Shown here: positions 25,296-31,290 of the stretch, piece by piece
Numbering within the stretch: the first letter of the stretch is position 1
Layout of the letters: the number at the start of each line of letters is the position of its first letter
Assembly (NCBI GenBank): GCA_024709145.1
Contig: JANJXG010000123.1
Coordinates: forward strand, 1 to 64,000
Direction of reading: 5' to 3'
Length of the DNA stretch: 64,000 nt
Source of the DNA: Bacteroidales bacterium
Lineage (GTDB): Bacteria > Bacteroidota > Bacteroidia > Bacteroidales > F082
Program-made: the position numbers and the translations under genes
Notes under the pieces: model-generated
Told to the model about the DNA's origin: nothing
The model's database searches: none
What the model saw: only the letters and a program-made list of their open reading frames with translations

Positions 25296-25325
25296 AAAGC
25301 TGCTTTACCAAAGGCAGCTTTTTTT
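25296..25325. terminator. Rho-independent terminator after maeB
   Basis: AAAGCTGC (25296-25303) pairs with GCAGCTTT (25314-25321), extended inward by TTT/AAA, and is followed on the plus strand by a T run to 25325. It ends maeB. The T run touches the last codon of the convergent thrC gene, so the two genes are separated only by this hairpin. Confidence 0.8.
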
Positions 25326-26619
25326 ATGCCAGGATGCATTCGCGGATCTTATTGAGTTTGTTTTCCATTACCAGAAATGACTCCTTTTTTTTCATAAAAG
25401 CTGCAAGTCTGTCAGGAATGTAAACGGCCCTTCCAGTGCAAGCCTCAACCACTTCCTGAAACTTTGACGGATGGGCTGTTTCGAGAAAAATACCCTTGCT
25501 GAGCGAGGGCAAGCATGCCAATAAGTCCTTCAGACCAAGGTAGGCCACTGCCCCATGCGGATCGCAGCTGTAGTTAAACTGAGTTGAAAGTTCCCTGATG
25601 GCTTCACGTGTTTCGTCATCTGAGAACCGGAAACCATGTAAACGGTTTTCCATCGGCTGAGCAGCGAATAGATGCATGATGCGTTCAAAATTGCTCGGGT
25701 TACCCACATCCATGGCGTTGCTGATGGTTTGAATTGAAGGTCTGGCAACAAAGGAACCGGTTTTAAGATACTGAGGCACCACATCGTTGATATTTGTGGA
25801 AGCTGCAAAGGCCGAAATACCTGCTCCTGCAGCACTGGCAAGTAATCCGGCCGTCAGGTTGCCAAAATTTCCACTCGGCACACTGACGCCAATCCCGGGC
25901 TTACAACCCAAGCGACTCCAGGCATAGAGGTAATAAACAGCCTGAGGCAGTAAACGGCCAATGTTTATACTGTTGGCAGAGGTAAGGTTAAAATGAGGAT
26001 AATCAGCCTTTTCTGATAATAATTGCTTCACAAGGTGCTGACAATCATCAAAAGAACCATCCACCTCAATTGCTGTGATGTTATCGCCCCAGCAAGTGAG
26101 TTGTTTCTGTTGCATCATACTAACCCTTCCCTTCGGAAAAAGAATAAAAACCCTGATGCCCTCAACGCCATGAAAGCCGGAAGCCACGGCCCCGCCCGTA
26201 TCACCTGAAGTTGCAACTACAACTCTGACCTCTTTCCGGCTCTCCTGCATCAGCAGACTCGTAAGCCTTGCCATAAACCTGGCTCCCACATCTTTAAAAG
26301 CCAGCGTTGGACCATGAAAAAGCTCCAGGCTATATAGTTGATCCGAAAGCTGAACAAGGGGGATTGGAAAATTGAACACATCCCTGCAAATGGCCTCCAA
26401 ATGCCTGATATCGGGTTCACCACCCATCAGGACATGCAAAAGCCGGGTGGCTATTTCGGGCAATTCCAGTTGTTGCAGACCCGAAATCTGTTCCTGACTT
26501 AGTTTAGGAAGAAATTCAGGCATATAAAGACCGCCGTCATCGGCCAATCCTTTCAGCACAGCCTCTTTCAAGCTCACGGGCTGATTCTTCTTTAGGTCTC
26601 TTGTTGAGAAGTATTTCAT
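25324..26619 (-). CDS. thrC: Threonine synthase
   Basis: A 431-residue PLP enzyme turning O-phosphohomoserine into threonine. The PLP lysine lies in LAFKDVGARF near residue 109, and the phosphate-binding region in ATSGDTGGAVASGF. The N-terminus (MKYFSTRDLKKNQPVSLKEAVLKGLADDGGLYMPEF) is typical of the bacterial/yeast-type subgroup. It is the last gene of the thrA-thrB-thrC operon, 24 nt after thrB, and is controlled by the attenuator upstream of thrA. Confidence 0.97.
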   Translation of the reverse strand: MKYFSTRDLKKNQPVSLKEAVLKGLADDGGLYMPEFLPKLSQEQISGLQQLELPEIATRLLHVLMGGEPDIRHLEAICRDVFNFPIPLVQLSDQLYSLELFHGPTLAFKDVGARFMARLTSLLMQESRKEVRVVVATSGDTGGAVASGFHGVEGIRVFILFPKGRVSMMQQKQLTCWGDNITAIEVDGSFDDCQHLVKQLLSEKADYPHFNLTSANSINIGRLLPQAVYYLYAWSRLGCKPGIGVSVPSGNFGNLTAGLLASAAGAGISAFAASTNINDVVPQYLKTGSFVARPSIQTISNAMDVGNPSNFERIMHLFAAQPMENRLHGFRFSDDETREAIRELSTQFNYSCDPHGAVAYLGLKDLLACLPSLSKGIFLETAHPSKFQEVVEACTGRAVYIPDRLAAFMKKKESFLVMENKLNKIRECILA

Positions 26620-26643: not shown

Positions 26644-27615
26644 TTAATGAGTCAGGTGTTCAGGCTGTAGGATTTCAAGAACTTCGGCACCCCTGGGATT
26701 TATCATTGAAACAAAAGTTTGATGACTGACATCCCCTTGACTTAACAACGCACTGATTCTTGTGGTCACAGCTGTTGCTATCGCATGGCTGGTGCAAAAA
26801 GCAAAAACCGTAGGTCCGGAGCCTGAGATGCCAAAGCCAAGTGCCTGCTCGTGAATTGCAGCTTGACGCATCTCGCCGAAAAACGGAATACGTGCCGAGC
26901 GATGCTGTTCAACAACCACGTCATGAAGGCTGCGACTGATAAGGCCAGGATCGTTGCGGTAAAAACCTGCAATCAGTCCAGCCACATTACCCCATTGTAC
27001 AACTGCATCGCGGAGGGGAATCATTTCCGGCAAAATCTTTCTAGCTTCGCGGGTCGGGATGCTGACATCGGGATGAATGATTGCAACCCAAAGACTGTCA
27101 GGAATCGGAATACTGACAATATCGGCAGTTTGGTTGTTTCTTATCAACACCAATCCGCCAAACAGTGCAGGTGCTACATTGTCAGCGTGTGCATTGCCAC
27201 AGGCCAGGCGTTCACCTTCCATGGCCAACGGCAACAACTCACTGAGCGAAAGCTGGTTACCCATAAGCGTGTTGATTCCCAGCAAGGCGGCCACACTGCT
27301 TGCCGCACTTGAGCCCAATCCACTGTTCAGCGGCATCTGTTTGTGAACACTTACAGCAACCCCTTGATTGATCCCGGTTTGTTCGAGATAAAGCTTCACC
27401 ACTGCCGAAGCCGTATTCTTCTCAACTGAAGTTGGCAAGAGCCCATTGTCGCCGGTAATTTCTTTTAAACTTACTTCTTTGCTGTCATTAAGTTGCAAAT
27501 CAACCACATCGCCTGGTTTTTCAAGGGCAAAACCAAGGATATCAAATCCACAATTAAGGTTTGAAACACTGGCAGGGGCAAAAGTACGAATGGATGTTCC
27601 GGATGGATATTTCAT
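26644..27615 (-). CDS. thrB: Homoserine kinase
   Basis: A 323-residue GHMP-family kinase that phosphorylates homoserine. The GHMP ATP motif PLNSGLGSSAASSVAAL is near residues 95-111. The N-terminal APASVSNLNCGFDILGFAL and the C-terminal GFGISGSGPTVFAF are both family marks. It lies 36 nt after thrA and 24 nt before thrC, in an operon. Confidence 0.96.
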   Translation of the reverse strand: MKYPSGTSIRTFAPASVSNLNCGFDILGFALEKPGDVVDLQLNDSKEVSLKEITGDNGLLPTSVEKNTASAVVKLYLEQTGINQGVAVSVHKQMPLNSGLGSSAASSVAALLGINTLMGNQLSLSELLPLAMEGERLACGNAHADNVAPALFGGLVLIRNNQTADIVSIPIPDSLWVAIIHPDVSIPTREARKILPEMIPLRDAVVQWGNVAGLIAGFYRNDPGLISRSLHDVVVEQHRSARIPFFGEMRQAAIHEQALGFGISGSGPTVFAFCTSHAIATAVTTRISALLSQGDVSHQTFVSMINPRGAEVLEILQPEHLTH

Positions 27616-27651: not shown

Positions 27652-30099
27652 TTAAACCCGGGCAGCCCGAAGAATATCGGCAAAAACACCGGCAGACGTC
27701 ACTGCTGCACCTGCTCCCGGCCCTTTGATTACCAAGGGGTTGTTTCGGTAACGGTCGGTTGTAAAGGCAATGATGTTGTCGCTGCCACTCAGGTTGTAAA
27801 AGGGATGGCCTGTGTCGGCAAAACTCAGTTTAATTGTCATTCTGCCTTCGCTCACTTCACCAGTATAGCGGAGTACGCTGTTCCTGCTTAATGCTTGCTC
27901 TTTCAAGACATTGAAATGATTTTCGGCTGCCTCGAGTGCTTGATAGAATTCTTCCACCGATGGAGCCGACAGACAGGAATCTGGCAGAATGGGCTCAACC
28001 ACAACATCAGATAAATCAACCTCTAAACCCGTTTCACGTGCCAGGATGAGAAGTTTTCTGGCAAAATCACGTCCGTTGAGGTCGTCACGCGGATCCGGTT
28101 CGGTAAAACCTTTGGCTTGCGCCTCTCTGACCACCTCTGCAAAGTTTCTGTTTCCATTGTAGTTGTTGAAAATGAAGGATATTGTACCTGAAAGCACAGC
28201 CTCCATTTTGAGAATCCGATCGCCACTCAAAAGCAAATCCTGCATGGTTTTAATCACCGGAAGCCCGGCTCCCACATTAGTTTCATAGAGAAATGCCACG
28301 TCGTGACGACGGGCAGTAAGAAGTAGTTTACGATAGTTTTCCCAATCGGATGAGGGGCCGGTTTTGTTGCAGCAAACCACCGAAAGGTGATTCTCCATTA
28401 ATCTGGTGTAAAACATTGGCAACAAAGTACTTCCGGTGTTATCGACAAATACACTGTTGGGCAGGTTAAGTTGTTGAATATCCTTTACAAAACTTTCCAT
28501 ATCGGCCGGTTTACCTTGTTCAAACAAAATCTCCTCCCATTGGTCAGCCTGTATTGGTTGTCCATTACCAACAACCATTCTGCGGCTGTTGATGATGCCC
28601 ATCACGTTGATATTCAATTGATGCTGCTGTCGGAGATTGTCTGAAGAGGCAGCAATCTGCCTGAGCAACTCAGCCCCGATGGTTCCTGTTCCGGCCAGAA
28701 ACAAATGGATGGTTTTGACGGGCGAAAGAAACAAAGAGTCGTGAACAGCATTGAGCGCTTTTGAAAGGTCGCCCGCTTCAATCACAACCGAAATATTGAG
28801 CTCTGAAGAACCCTGGGCAATGGCAACCACATTCACACCACTGCGGCCCAGCGATTGGAAGAGTTTCCCCGAAAGACCGCTTGTCTTACGCATATTTTCA
28901 CCTACAACGGCCAGAATACTCAGGTTATGCATCACTTTGGGCGCTTCAATTCTGTTGGTGTAAAGCTCCATTTCAAACGCTGATCGAATGGCTTCTACGG
29001 CTGCATGGCTATCGTTGGGAGCTACTGCAAAGCTGATGCTGTGTTCGGAGCTGGCTTGGGTGATGAGGATTACATTGACACCGGCCAATGCCATTGCACT
29101 GAAGAGTCTGCCGCCAAAGCCTTTAAGTCCAACCATACCGGTGCCCTCGACATTAATCAGGCTGATGTTTTTAATAGAAGAAATCCCCCTGATAAGGCTG
29201 CCATTGCCACTTGGCTGAGGATGAATGGCCGTGCCGGGTTGATCTGGCCGGAAGGTGTTTTTAATCTGAATGGGGATTTTACCCGCAAAAGCCGGAATCA
29301 AGGTGGGTGGGTAAATCACCTTGGCTCCGAAATAAGACAATTCCATTGCCTCTTTGTAACTTAGCTCCTTTAAAGTAAAGGCGTTTTTAACCAACCTCGG
29401 ATCAGCAGTCATAAAGCCATCCACATCTGTCCAGATCTGTATTTCCTCTGCCTCAAGAGCCGACCCGAAAAGTGATGCAGTATAATCTGAACCACCTCTG
29501 CCCAAGGTGGTAGTGTCGCCTTTTGCATCAGCTGCAATGAATCCAGTTACAACAGCGGTTGCTCCCTGAAGCCTGGCATACCAGCTTCTGATTCTTTCAT
29601 TTGTCATGGCCTCATTCACAACGGCATGCCCAAAATTGCTGTTGGTAGCAATCAGCAGACGGGCATCTGTATAAACAACATTACCAAAACGCTGATCAAG
29701 GATGGCAGCCACCATGGAGCAGGAAAGCTGCTCACCAAGAGCCATCACCTTATCCTTGGTTCGCAGCGAACACTCCTGCAACGCACTGATACCCCCCAGC
29801 AAAAGCTGCAATTCAGCGAACAGAGGTTCCAGGACCCCGGTAACCAGCTGATTTTCACAGAAGAATTTTTCAATCACCAATAGATGTTTTTCCCGGAGCT
29901 CCCACATAAGATCGGCAGTATTTCTGCCTGCTGCCGCCTCACCGGTAAGGTGAATCAGCAAATTGGTGACGCCACTCATGGCCGAACAAACTACCAGGGG
30001 TTGTTCCGATGCCTCGCGACTTCGCTCTACAATTTCAGCCAGTATGGCAATGGATTCTGCACTGCCAACCGATGTACCTCCAAATTTCAGCACCTTCAT
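27652..30099 (-). CDS. thrA: Bifunctional aspartokinase/homoserine dehydrogenase
   Basis: An 815-residue fusion of the first and third enzymes of threonine and methionine synthesis. The aspartokinase domain (~1-290) opens with KFGGTSVGSAES and has GRGGSDYTASL. Two ACT-type regulatory segments follow (~310-455; VEGTGMVGLKGFGGRLF, SILAVVGENMRKTSGLSGKLF). The homoserine dehydrogenase domain occupies ~460-815 (LFLAGTGTIGAELLRQIA, GAGLPVIKTMQDLLLSGD, GFTEPDPRDDLNGRDFARKLLIL). It is the first structural gene after the thr leader and attenuator, so it is controlled by threonyl-tRNA supply as well as, probably, by threonine feedback through the ACT domains. Confidence 0.97.
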   Translation of the reverse strand: MKVLKFGGTSVGSAESIAILAEIVERSREASEQPLVVCSAMSGVTNLLIHLTGEAAAGRNTADLMWELREKHLLVIEKFFCENQLVTGVLEPLFAELQLLLGGISALQECSLRTKDKVMALGEQLSCSMVAAILDQRFGNVVYTDARLLIATNSNFGHAVVNEAMTNERIRSWYARLQGATAVVTGFIAADAKGDTTTLGRGGSDYTASLFGSALEAEEIQIWTDVDGFMTADPRLVKNAFTLKELSYKEAMELSYFGAKVIYPPTLIPAFAGKIPIQIKNTFRPDQPGTAIHPQPSGNGSLIRGISSIKNISLINVEGTGMVGLKGFGGRLFSAMALAGVNVILITQASSEHSISFAVAPNDSHAAVEAIRSAFEMELYTNRIEAPKVMHNLSILAVVGENMRKTSGLSGKLFQSLGRSGVNVVAIAQGSSELNISVVIEAGDLSKALNAVHDSLFLSPVKTIHLFLAGTGTIGAELLRQIAASSDNLRQQHQLNINVMGIINSRRMVVGNGQPIQADQWEEILFEQGKPADMESFVKDIQQLNLPNSVFVDNTGSTLLPMFYTRLMENHLSVVCCNKTGPSSDWENYRKLLLTARRHDVAFLYETNVGAGLPVIKTMQDLLLSGDRILKMEAVLSGTISFIFNNYNGNRNFAEVVREAQAKGFTEPDPRDDLNGRDFARKLLILARETGLEVDLSDVVVEPILPDSCLSAPSVEEFYQALEAAENHFNVLKEQALSRNSVLRYTGEVSEGRMTIKLSFADTGHPFYNLSGSDNIIAFTTDRYRNNPLVIKGPGAGAAVTSAGVFADILRAARV

Positions 30100-30119
30100 T
30101 TCTTTTTGTTTTTTGAATT

Positions 30120-30153
30120 AAAAAAAAGAGCTCCCCGTTTTCCGGAAAGCTCT
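30120..30153 (-). terminator. thr operon attenuator (intrinsic terminator)
   Basis: On the minus strand AGAGCTTTCCG (30153-30143) pairs with CGGGGAGCTCT (30137-30127) around the loop GAAAA: 11 continuous pairs, two of them G-U. A U tract of 8 (30127-30120) follows. It lies 21 nt before the thrA ATG and 31 nt after the thrL stop, the expected place for an attenuator that stops transcription when threonine is plentiful. Confidence 0.9.
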
Positions 30154-30204
30154 GTATCTCTGTTTTGGCTTAATAAATCTCAGCTAATCAGTACAAAACC
30201 TTCC
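30144..30204 (-). promoter_or_regulatory. Alternative antiterminator pairing of the thr leader
   Basis: The end of the leader-peptide gene, GGAAGGTTTTGTA on the minus strand (30204-30192), can pair over 13 uninterrupted positions, three of them G-U, with TACAGAGCTTTCC (30156-30144). That second segment includes most of the 5' arm of the terminator, so the two structures exclude each other. A ribosome stalled in the Thr codons leaves the first segment free and favours the antiterminator. A ribosome that reaches the stop codon covers it and lets the terminator form. Base-pairing was worked out by hand; no energies were computed. Confidence 0.8.
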
Positions 30205-30267
30205 ACTGCACCTGCCCGTGGTGGTGGTGGTAGTGGTGGTGGTTTCGGTACTTGTGTAAGATTTCAT
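30184..30267 (-). CDS. thrL: thr operon leader peptide
   Basis: A 27-residue leader peptide with nine consecutive threonine codons at positions 9-17 (seven ACC, one ACT, one ACG) and 12 Thr in all. The rest reads MKSYTSTE before the run and GRCSGRFCTD after it. There is no isoleucine codon, unlike E. coli thrL, so control should answer to threonine alone. An in-frame ATG three codons upstream (30276) is also possible; I prefer 30267 because the likely transcription start falls almost on 30276. It is too short to have a function as a protein. Its position between a good promoter and a terminator hairpin before thrA makes the role clear. Confidence 0.9.
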   Translation of the reverse strand: MKSYTSTETTTTTTTTTGRCSGRFCTD

Positions 30268-30284
30268 ATAGCTCATTAAAGGGT

Positions 30285-30315
30285 CAAAAATAGATTATTT
30301 TTAATCCCGCACAAA
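30285..30315 (-). promoter_or_regulatory. Promoter of the thr operon
   Basis: The minus strand carries TTTG (30315-30312), 19 nt, then TATTTTTG (30292-30285). This fits the Bacteroidota -33 / -7 consensus and its spacing. The transcript should start near 30278, giving about 10 nt before the thrL ATG and about 180 nt before thrA. Confidence 0.7.
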
Positions 30316-30342
30316 TTTTTTCTTCTTTCACCTCATGTTTCT

Positions 30343-30350
30343 TACTTTTG
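30343..30350 (+). promoter_or_regulatory. Candidate -7 element of mscS
   Basis: TACTTTTG matches TAnnTTTG, 86 nt before the mscS ATG and facing away from the thr promoter. No -33 TTTG is seen at proper spacing. Confidence 0.35.
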
Positions 30351-30435
30351 TCGACAAAGGACAGACGATGTTTTGTGGCAAAATAAATTGTTACATTAAA
30401 CACAGCCAAACAAAAAACTTATAATTCAAAGAATT

Positions 30436-31290
30436 ATGGAAGAACAAGCCGAAAGATTACCCATGACCCTTGTTGGCGTGACAGAATTTCTGTTTCAGAT
30501 CGTACTTTCATATGGAATCAGGCTTTTCGGTGCAGTGATTGCACTGATTGTGGGATTTTGGATTGTTGGAAGGATCAAAGCCGGCTTGGTGAAACTGATG
30601 GAACGCCGCGATGTTGAACCTTCGCTGCGGAGTTTCCTCCGGAGTTTTCTCAGTGTGGCCCTAAAAATCCTGGTTATCATCACCGTGTTGAGCATGGTGG
30701 GAGTTCAGATGACAAGTTTTATTGCCATGCTTGGTGCCGCAGGTTTAGCCATCGGTCTGGCCATGCAGGGAACACTTCAAAATGTTGCCGGCGGAGTTAT
30801 TATTCTACTTTTTAAACCCTTCAAGGTGGGCGATTTTATCGAAGCACAAGGCTATATGGGCACGGTTTCGGAAATACAGATTTTCAATACGCTCGTCAAT
30901 ACTGTTGATAACAAAGTAGTTATCATACCCAATGGAGGCCTGGCCACCGGGTCGTTAATCAATTATTCAAAAATGGATACCAGGCGTGTAGACTGGATCA
31001 TCAGCATTGCATACGGAGAAGCTTATCAAAAAGCTGAGGACATACTTAACAGTCTTATCACGGCCGACACCCGTATTCTGCAGGAGCCGGCTCCCTTTGT
31101 CGCTTTATCCAAACTCAACAGCAGCTCGGTTGATATCGTGGTTCGTTGCTGGGTTAATTCTGTTGATTACTGGCCTGTTTTTTTTGATATGAACCGCCTT
31201 GTTTATGAAACTTTCACCATCGAAGGCATTCAAATTCCTTTTCAACAACTTGATGTTCACCTGCACGAATTGGCCGGTAAAAAGCAATAA
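30436..31290 (+). CDS. Small-conductance mechanosensitive channel (MscS family)
   Basis: A 284-residue inner-membrane channel that opens under membrane tension during hypo-osmotic shock. Three N-terminal membrane helices precede the pore helix and beta domain signature: AAGLAIGLAMQGTLQNVAGGVIILLFKPFKVGDFIEAQG. The cytoplasmic cage follows (VVIIPNGGLATGSLINYSKMDTRRVDW). Length equals the E. coli MscS class, so this is a minimal channel without extra domains. It stands alone on the plus strand. Confidence 0.95.
   Translation: MEEQAERLPMTLVGVTEFLFQIVLSYGIRLFGAVIALIVGFWIVGRIKAGLVKLMERRDVEPSLRSFLRSFLSVALKILVIITVLSMVGVQMTSFIAMLGAAGLAIGLAMQGTLQNVAGGVIILLFKPFKVGDFIEAQGYMGTVSEIQIFNTLVNTVDNKVVIIPNGGLATGSLINYSKMDTRRVDWIISIAYGEAYQKAEDILNSLITADTRILQEPAPFVALSKLNSSSVDIVVRCWVNSVDYWPVFFDMNRLVYETFTIEGIQIPFQQLDVHLHELAGKKQ

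Follow-up and report, generated by a model that had tools for sequence, protein, structure and literature searches.

A probable threonine attenuator upstream of thrABC in a Bacteroidales genome, and a second form of thrA leader in Bacteroidota

How might a member of the Bacteroidota adjust transcription of its threonine operon to the supply of threonine? The question is raised by a stretch of 64,000 nucleotides from a Bacteroidales genome (the window), in which a first-pass annotation, made from the sequence alone, had seen a complete threonine attenuator in front of an operon on the minus strand. The three genes of this operon are thrA, thrB and thrC, each identified by a curated NCBIfam model whose cut-off its score exceeds. 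From the analysis described here we conclude that the element is very probably a ribosome-mediated transcription attenuator of thrABC, which senses charged threonyl-tRNA. The coordinates of the genes and of the leader parts are collected in the table.

Table. The thrABC operon of the window and the parts of its leader, from the promoter side downward.
Feature	Positions	Strand	Basis
-33 promoter element TTTG	30312..30315	-	sequence
-7 promoter element TATTTTTG (TAnnTTTG)	30285..30292	-	sequence; 19-nt spacer from the -33 element
Leader peptide gene, 30 residues, MSYMKSYTSTETTTTTTTTTGRCSGRFCTD	30184..30276	-	translation
5' arm of a helix (11 bp, 3' arm 30202-30192) that sequesters arm 2 in the ribosome-free leader	30258..30268	-	helix list, ribosome-free fold
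Nine consecutive Thr codons (control codons)	30217..30243	-	codon list
Hairpin 1:2, candidate pause/protector; Thr codons and the region before and into arm 2	30203..30236	-	-11.3 kcal/mol
Arm 2, 5' strand of the antiterminator, within the last peptide codons	30192..30205	-	14 uninterrupted pairs with 30156-30143
Arm 3 of the antiterminator, overlaps the 5' strand of the terminator	30143..30156	-	2:3 helix region -19.3 kcal/mol, z -4.4
Intrinsic terminator hairpin, 11 bp	30127..30153	-	-18.0 kcal/mol with tail, z -5.1
Terminator T run, 8 T, the first one paired in the stem	30120..30127	-	sequence
thrA, bifunctional aspartate kinase/homoserine dehydrogenase I	27652..30099	-	NF006959, 988 bits (cut-off 726)
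thrB, homoserine kinase	26644..27615	-	NF002288, 355 bits (cut-off 194); TIGR00191, 216 bits (cut-off 168)
thrC, threonine synthase	25324..26619	-	TIGR00260, 272.5 bits (cut-off 167)

The promoter is present as it had been described, with both elements and their spacer in place, and corresponds to the sigma-ABfr consensus TTTG / TAnnTTTG given in PMC7366714. The leader peptide had been counted at 27 residues, which is what the in-frame ATG at 30267 yields, but an earlier in-frame ATG at 30276 gives 30; the stop codon ends at 30184. The nine Thr codons in a row can be read directly in the codon list and comprise seven ACC, one ACT and one ACG. In the peptide as a whole, ACC accounts for 8 of the 12 Thr codons, and its translation contains no Ile codon anywhere. 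The -7 element lies 8 nt from the first ATG and 17 nt from the second, and no Shine-Dalgarno sequence was seen by inspection before the peptide, which bears out the very short 5' leader without such a site; the earlier in-frame start makes the predicted leader even shorter than had been claimed. From these parts we infer that the promoter is used and that the peptide is translated.

Downstream of the control codons, two mutually exclusive helices compete for arm 3. The terminator had been credited with a run of eight U, and eight T are indeed found, but the first of them closes the stem and only seven follow it. The antiterminator connects the end of the peptide to the 5' arm of the terminator without interruption, as proposed, but is 14 bp long rather than 13, and four of its 14 pairs are G-U. 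For either the terminator or the 2:3 region, none of 200 shuffles was as stable, and none of 3000 dinucleotide shuffles of the leader offered arm 3 a partner that matched the antiterminator in length or score. Hairpin 1:2, in comparison, is no more stable than its shuffles (z -0.45).

To place a ribosome on the leader, we folded it up to arm 4 with 12 nt masked, starting at the first base of the codon in the A site. Codons were numbered from 0 in the 30-residue peptide, codon 20 lying just after the Thr run. According to PMC4833913 the cover of the ribosome extends as far as 12 nt past the stop codon; since this footprint amounts to 15 nt in the count used here, a 15-nt mask was run beside the 12-nt one. 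With the 12-nt mask, the antiterminator folds at each tested A-site position from codon 11 to codon 20 (-24.8 to -19.5 kcal/mol). Its remainder has -6.0 kcal/mol at codon 22 and -0.5 kcal/mol at the stop codon, where weak pairing of arm 3 persists at 5 of its 14 bases. In the ribosome-free fold, arm 2 is sequestered by the beginning of the leader, and the complete structure, terminator included, reaches -50.9 kcal/mol. Folding the two alternatives, a check proposed with the first-pass annotation, thus gave an antiterminator with the ribosome on the Thr run and its loss soon afterwards, in the leader up to arm 4. In the full transcript, equilibrium folding favours the terminator over the antiterminator at every ribosome position compared; the switch must therefore be kinetic, as in other attenuators.

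The sequence and the computed folds hence contain three features by which an attenuator is recognized: a Thr-rich ORF before thrABC, an intrinsic terminator (30153-30120) and an antiterminator exclusive with it, whose 5' arm is covered with the ribosome at the stop codon and free with the ribosome in the control codons. In the mechanism that we propose, transcription would begin at the predicted start, a few bases before the peptide gene, and a ribosome would trail the polymerase. When threonyl-tRNA is short, this ribosome would stall within the nine Thr codons and leave arm 2 free to pair with arm 3, so that no terminator would form and thrABC would be transcribed. When threonine is plentiful, it would reach the stop codon and cover arm 2; arm 3 would then pair with arm 4, and transcription would end at the T run. 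Without a ribosome, the start of the leader would hide arm 2 and the terminator would form too. The response to threonine is what we infer from this arrangement.

The second check proposed had been to look for the same covarying leader in related genomes. We took thrA regions at the best matches from three sets, namely named genomes (80 loci), 395 genomes of the phylum (377 with a match) and 119 genomes of the order, so that the sample consists of best-matching loci and is not a random sample of the phylum. Five of the 260 loci turned out not to be thrA upstream regions and two had no start, which left 253 usable regions; removing five duplicates gave 248 distinct ones. An ATG ORF with at least six Thr in ten codons is present in 41 of the 253 regions, compared to none of the 253 reverse complements and none in any of five shuffle sets of 253 sequences.

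The canonical layout, a Thr or Thr/Ile peptide followed by terminator and antiterminator, is found in 19 thrA loci including the window. The other members are two loci whose ThrA is 68% identical to that of the window (L002, L004), two from Chryseobacterium and Epilithonimonas (L006, L007), three from Pontibacter (L003, L009, L013), L084, and ten genomes of one further family (L085-L094), in one of which (L094) the peptide was identified by eye. Two loci in which a terminator follows a Thr-rich ORF were excluded from the 19 for antiterminators of only 7 and 4 bp (L102, L253), as were two whose hairpin has no T run (L005, L083); terminators located before a leader (e.g. L207, L208, L213) were not credited to that leader.

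Across these loci, the Thr run is kept as codons and not as bases, the relatives mixing ACA, ACC, ACG and ACT, and arms 2 and 3 change together (window, TGGAAGGTTTTGTA/TACAGAGCTTTCCG; L004, GAAGGTTTTG/CAAAGCCTTC; L006, CAGAAAGGT/GCCTTTCTG; L086, CGGAGGAAG/CTTCCTCCG). For 12 of the 19 loci we compared each arm 2 with its own and with foreign arms 3. The mean score was 18.5 for own pairs versus 14.5 for swapped ones, and the own sum was reached by none of 20000 permutations, with some swapped arm 3 outscoring the own partner in 6 of the 12 loci. The switch point recurs as well. When the last Thr codon of the run occupies the A site, arm 3 retains 75% or more of its maximal upstream pairing in all 19 loci with the 12-nt mask and in 18 with the 15-nt mask; when the stop codon does, the figure is down to 25% or less in 17 of the 19 with either mask. 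Three loci (L002, L087, L093) lose the antiterminator late, 5-9 codons past what was counted as the final Thr codon of the run. The distance from the last Thr or Ile codon to arm 2 is 9-18 nt (median 14), codons nearer than 9 nt being excluded by construction. The covarying leader is thus present at 18 other thrA loci.

The first-pass annotation had also named what would speak against it, namely relatives with thrA that have neither leader nor terminator. Such relatives do occur: 153 of the 248 distinct regions show neither the canonical layout nor the second leader form described below, among them two from the same order as the host of the window (L112, L113; ThrA 54-55% identical), and an ORF with at least five Thr in ten codons is still present in 6 of the 153. 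These regions restrict the attenuator to some lineages without undermining the one in the window.

A counterpart for another amino acid is found in the host genome itself. Its hisG gene (L317, G000:C103) is preceded by a His-rich leader peptide, MLLNIHHLHHHHRYRSGDVHLRCIE. Behind it come a 13-bp hairpin (-24.3 kcal/mol) and a T run, and in the masking test pairing was full while the ribosome stood on the His codons and was lost once it had passed them. More widely, an ORF with at least four His in ten codons occurs at 12 of 20 hisG loci, 4 of the 20 having been read at the wrong position, and an Ile/Leu/Val-rich ORF at 8 of 19 ilvD loci (L275-L293), with a terminator-like hairpin accompanying 7 of the 8. 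We note that the ilvD loci of other Bacteroidota in question (L278, L280, L283, L284, L285, L287, L293) carry Ile/Val/Leu-rich leaders and then terminator-like hairpins, an example being MQISIIIISVVVVNVFSTSAAGMV in L280. Judged by their leaders, thr and his operons share the attenuator in several lineages, and ilv operons probably do so too.

The same parts could have been read differently. If the Thr run were merely a slipped (ACC)n repeat, the peptide might have no regulatory role and the hairpin could be an ordinary terminator; seven of the nine codons in the run are ACC, which is also the commonest Thr codon in seven ORFs of the window (140 of 315). Yet ACT and ACG interrupt the run, related leaders keep Thr with mixed codons, the excess of Thr-rich ORFs upstream of thrA over the controls (41 of 253 versus 0) has no place in this explanation, and both the arm 2/arm 3 helix and the switch point recur in other loci. 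Further, the terminator has no other gene to stop, because the next upstream gene, an MscS-like gene starting at 30436 on the plus strand, is divergent and there is no minus-strand ORF of at least 100 aa between 30100 and 34146. We therefore consider a chance repeat very improbable. A threonine riboswitch or a T-box, in which a ligand- or tRNA-binding RNA and not translation would sense threonine, seems more improbable still. The leader does have structure and stands in front of a biosynthetic operon, as it would in that case, but no Rfam 15 family reached its gathering score within the window, the best leader match over 30000-30440 was Phe_leader with 19.8 bits against a threshold of 55, and the relatives share Thr codons and helices, not a conserved RNA core. 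With no Rfam match at threshold, this candidate was rejected.

A leader peptide might also act through ribosome arrest, exclusion of Rho or translational coupling to thrA instead of antitermination, and the second thrA leader form of the phylum, which has no strong terminator, suggests that other read-outs may exist nearby in evolution. For the window we regard this as unlikely to a high degree, in view of its strong terminator and 14-bp antiterminator; coupling in particular is made unlikely by the 84 bases between the stop codon of the leader and thrA. Ribosome-mediated attenuation, as originally suggested, remains the best reading of the element, given its three alternative helices, the switch at the end of the Thr run, the co-changing arms in relatives and the His version in the same genome.

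Which amino acids would such a leader report? The thr leader of E. coli contains Thr and Ile codons, and from the absence of the latter the signal in the window had been taken to be threonine alone. For the host this is apt: its genome (99.35% complete) contains no match to ilvD (PF00920) or ilvC (PF01450), so that by the usual route it probably turns no threonine into isoleucine. The absence of these two matches also makes it probable that the host is unable to synthesize branched-chain amino acids in the usual way. The reading does not extend to relatives with the same device, which use Thr and Ile and show no general link to ilvD. Canonical-layout leaders of other families mix Thr and Ile codons, and a comparison of Ile codons, counted over the whole peptide, with ilvD in 80 genomes gave p 0.20 for the canonical layout, 1.0 for the second form and 0.63 for both together. 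When only codons before arm 2 were counted, by hand, the split was 2 of 3 Ile-free leaders versus 0 of 16 (p about 0.018), a criterion that was chosen after seeing the data. One genome with the canonical layout (L004) also has neither ilvD nor ilvC, and its leader is Ile-free before arm 2, with one Ile beyond. As a rule, the loss of Ile codons with the Ile pathway was rejected: L002 has an Ile-free leader though its genome contains ilvC and a partial ilvD match, and G159 has neither gene, yet Ile codons are present. The missing Ile codons fit this host, but there is no rule across genomes.

The window leader resembles the enterobacterial thr attenuator (thrL; RF00506 Thr_leader) in having a Thr-rich peptide before thrABC, alternative 2:3/3:4 helices and an intrinsic terminator. 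ACC is favoured in both, with the 8 of 12 Thr codons mentioned above in the window and eight ACC codons reported for E. coli (PMC1183508). It differs in the absence of Ile codons, the very short 5' leader and the Bacteroidota promoter. In searches with RF00506, the window scored 13.6 bits against a gathering score of 55, and there was no match in the host contig C137 at E 0.001; the leader works like Thr_leader but is no member of that family. Among 118 genomes of the phylum, a single one reached the RF00506 cut-off (G072:C7:55202-55323, L271; 55.3 bits), and one locus with the canonical layout (L087 in G002) matched at 36.5 bits.

Within the host, a second bifunctional aspartate kinase/homoserine dehydrogenase is encoded at G000:C64:3704-6094 and is 38% identical to ThrA. 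No Thr-rich leader ORF was found in the stretches read upstream of the other aspartate kinase genes of this genome (C64, C5, C48). A literature search that covered few subscription papers found nothing on a thr attenuator in Bacteroidota. Vitreschak et al. (2004, FEMS Microbiol Lett) reportedly predicted attenuators in Bacteroidetes/Chlorobi, and are also said to have found thrA leaders with Thr, Ile and Met codons in Pasteurellales. A close precedent in the phylum is Flavobacterium psychrophilum, for which 'strong clues' of leader-peptide attenuation before amino-acid biosynthesis operons were described (PMC9723704); the proposed mechanism is the same, but the operons are not named in that passage. 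For B. thetaiotaomicron, short ORFs within long 5' UTRs have been reported (PMC7366714). The Bacteroid-trp motif (RF01692), a cis-regulatory RNA candidate of Bacteroidetes named for trp (PMC2864571), belongs to a different operon from the thr operon of the window and had no match in the host genome at E 0.001, whereas a control genome, Bacteroides ihuae, was matched. In 2010, according to PMC2965389, leader-peptide systems were known only from Proteobacteria, Actinobacteria, that paper's own Firmicutes cases and ermC. The principle of attenuation is textbook knowledge, the element in the window is canonical, and such leaders have already been suspected in print for the phylum.

Less expected was a second form of leader, absent from the window but found in 76 of the 248 distinct thrA upstream regions, a count reached after 11 scan matches had been dropped by eye. 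In this form, Thr (Ile, Met) codons lead into a small GC hairpin, for example ACCCC-TTA-GGGGT, and there is no strong terminator (examples upstream of thrA are L187, L200, L166, L080 and L238). The stop codon of the leader lies inside the hairpin in 53 cases, overlaps its end in 12, follows it within 12 nt in 9 and is elsewhere in 2. The scan matched 88 of the 253 regions, compared to 5 reverse complements and 2-9 regions in shuffles; at a stricter score of 14, it matched 43 regions and none of the reverse complements or shuffles. As the scan accepts paired stems only, pairing in itself is no evidence, but differing pair types are, and the stems do differ: in one family, ACCCC/GGGGT is replaced by ACGGG/CCCGT at five loci, and CAACCC/GGGTTG and CCCGG/CCGGG occur as well. 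CATAT follows within 30 nt of the hairpin in 44 of the 76 leaders, compared to 256 of 3800 random windows, and at least five T in a row within 10 nt after it in only 9 of 76. There was no Rfam match at threshold in 20 loci scanned, 15 of them of the second form. RNAalifold gave no structure for a free alignment of 73 second-form leaders, so that the evidence for the hairpin rests on the direct scan. The commonest hairpin sequence occurs exactly once, before thrA, in 9 of 16 genomes and not at all in the other 7.

The thrA genes of Bacteroidota may be preceded by two attenuator designs, the second being an undescribed, minimal leader-peptide switch that operates with neither an antiterminator nor a canonical terminator, a proposal that we make tentatively, as one that could well be right but to which we give somewhat less than even weight. 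A stalled ribosome would sit on the hairpin and block its formation; the off signal would be the hairpin itself or, after it, the ACATAT stretch with a second weak hairpin. In several Bacteroidales thrA leaders (e.g. L070, L080, L062, L025), Thr and Met codons are mixed and the peptides end in TPWG, TPRG or TPQG. Such a mixture would suit the shared homoserine pathway, as if both branch products were sensed. Some his leaders end like the second-form thrA leaders, in LPQG, VPQG or LPNW. As a lead, the second form is more novel than the attenuator of the window and merits a study of its own.

In 42 of 84 thrA leaders, drawn from both forms, an exact TAnnTTTG is no more than 60 nt away from the first ATG; its distance to the ATG is 8-12 nt in 20 of these, mostly Flavobacterium-like second-form leaders, and 20 nt in L002, L004, L007 and L087. 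For comparison, most 5' UTRs of B. thetaiotaomicron measure about 23 nt and about 3.7% are shorter than 10 nt, according to PMC7366714. Judged by these predicted promoters, a short 5' leader is common to the window and other thr leaders.

The window therefore offers an almost complete leader-peptide attenuator, which is directly testable, in a phylum where the case for such control has been a suspicion drawn from transcriptomes and not a demonstration (PMC9723704, PMC7366714). The element escapes both Rfam and protein models and consequently stays unannotated. Together, two leader designs for one gene form a natural pair for studying how the position of a ribosome becomes a decision about transcription, and they bear on this question in bacteria with short leaders or leaders in which the Shine-Dalgarno sequence is short or absent.
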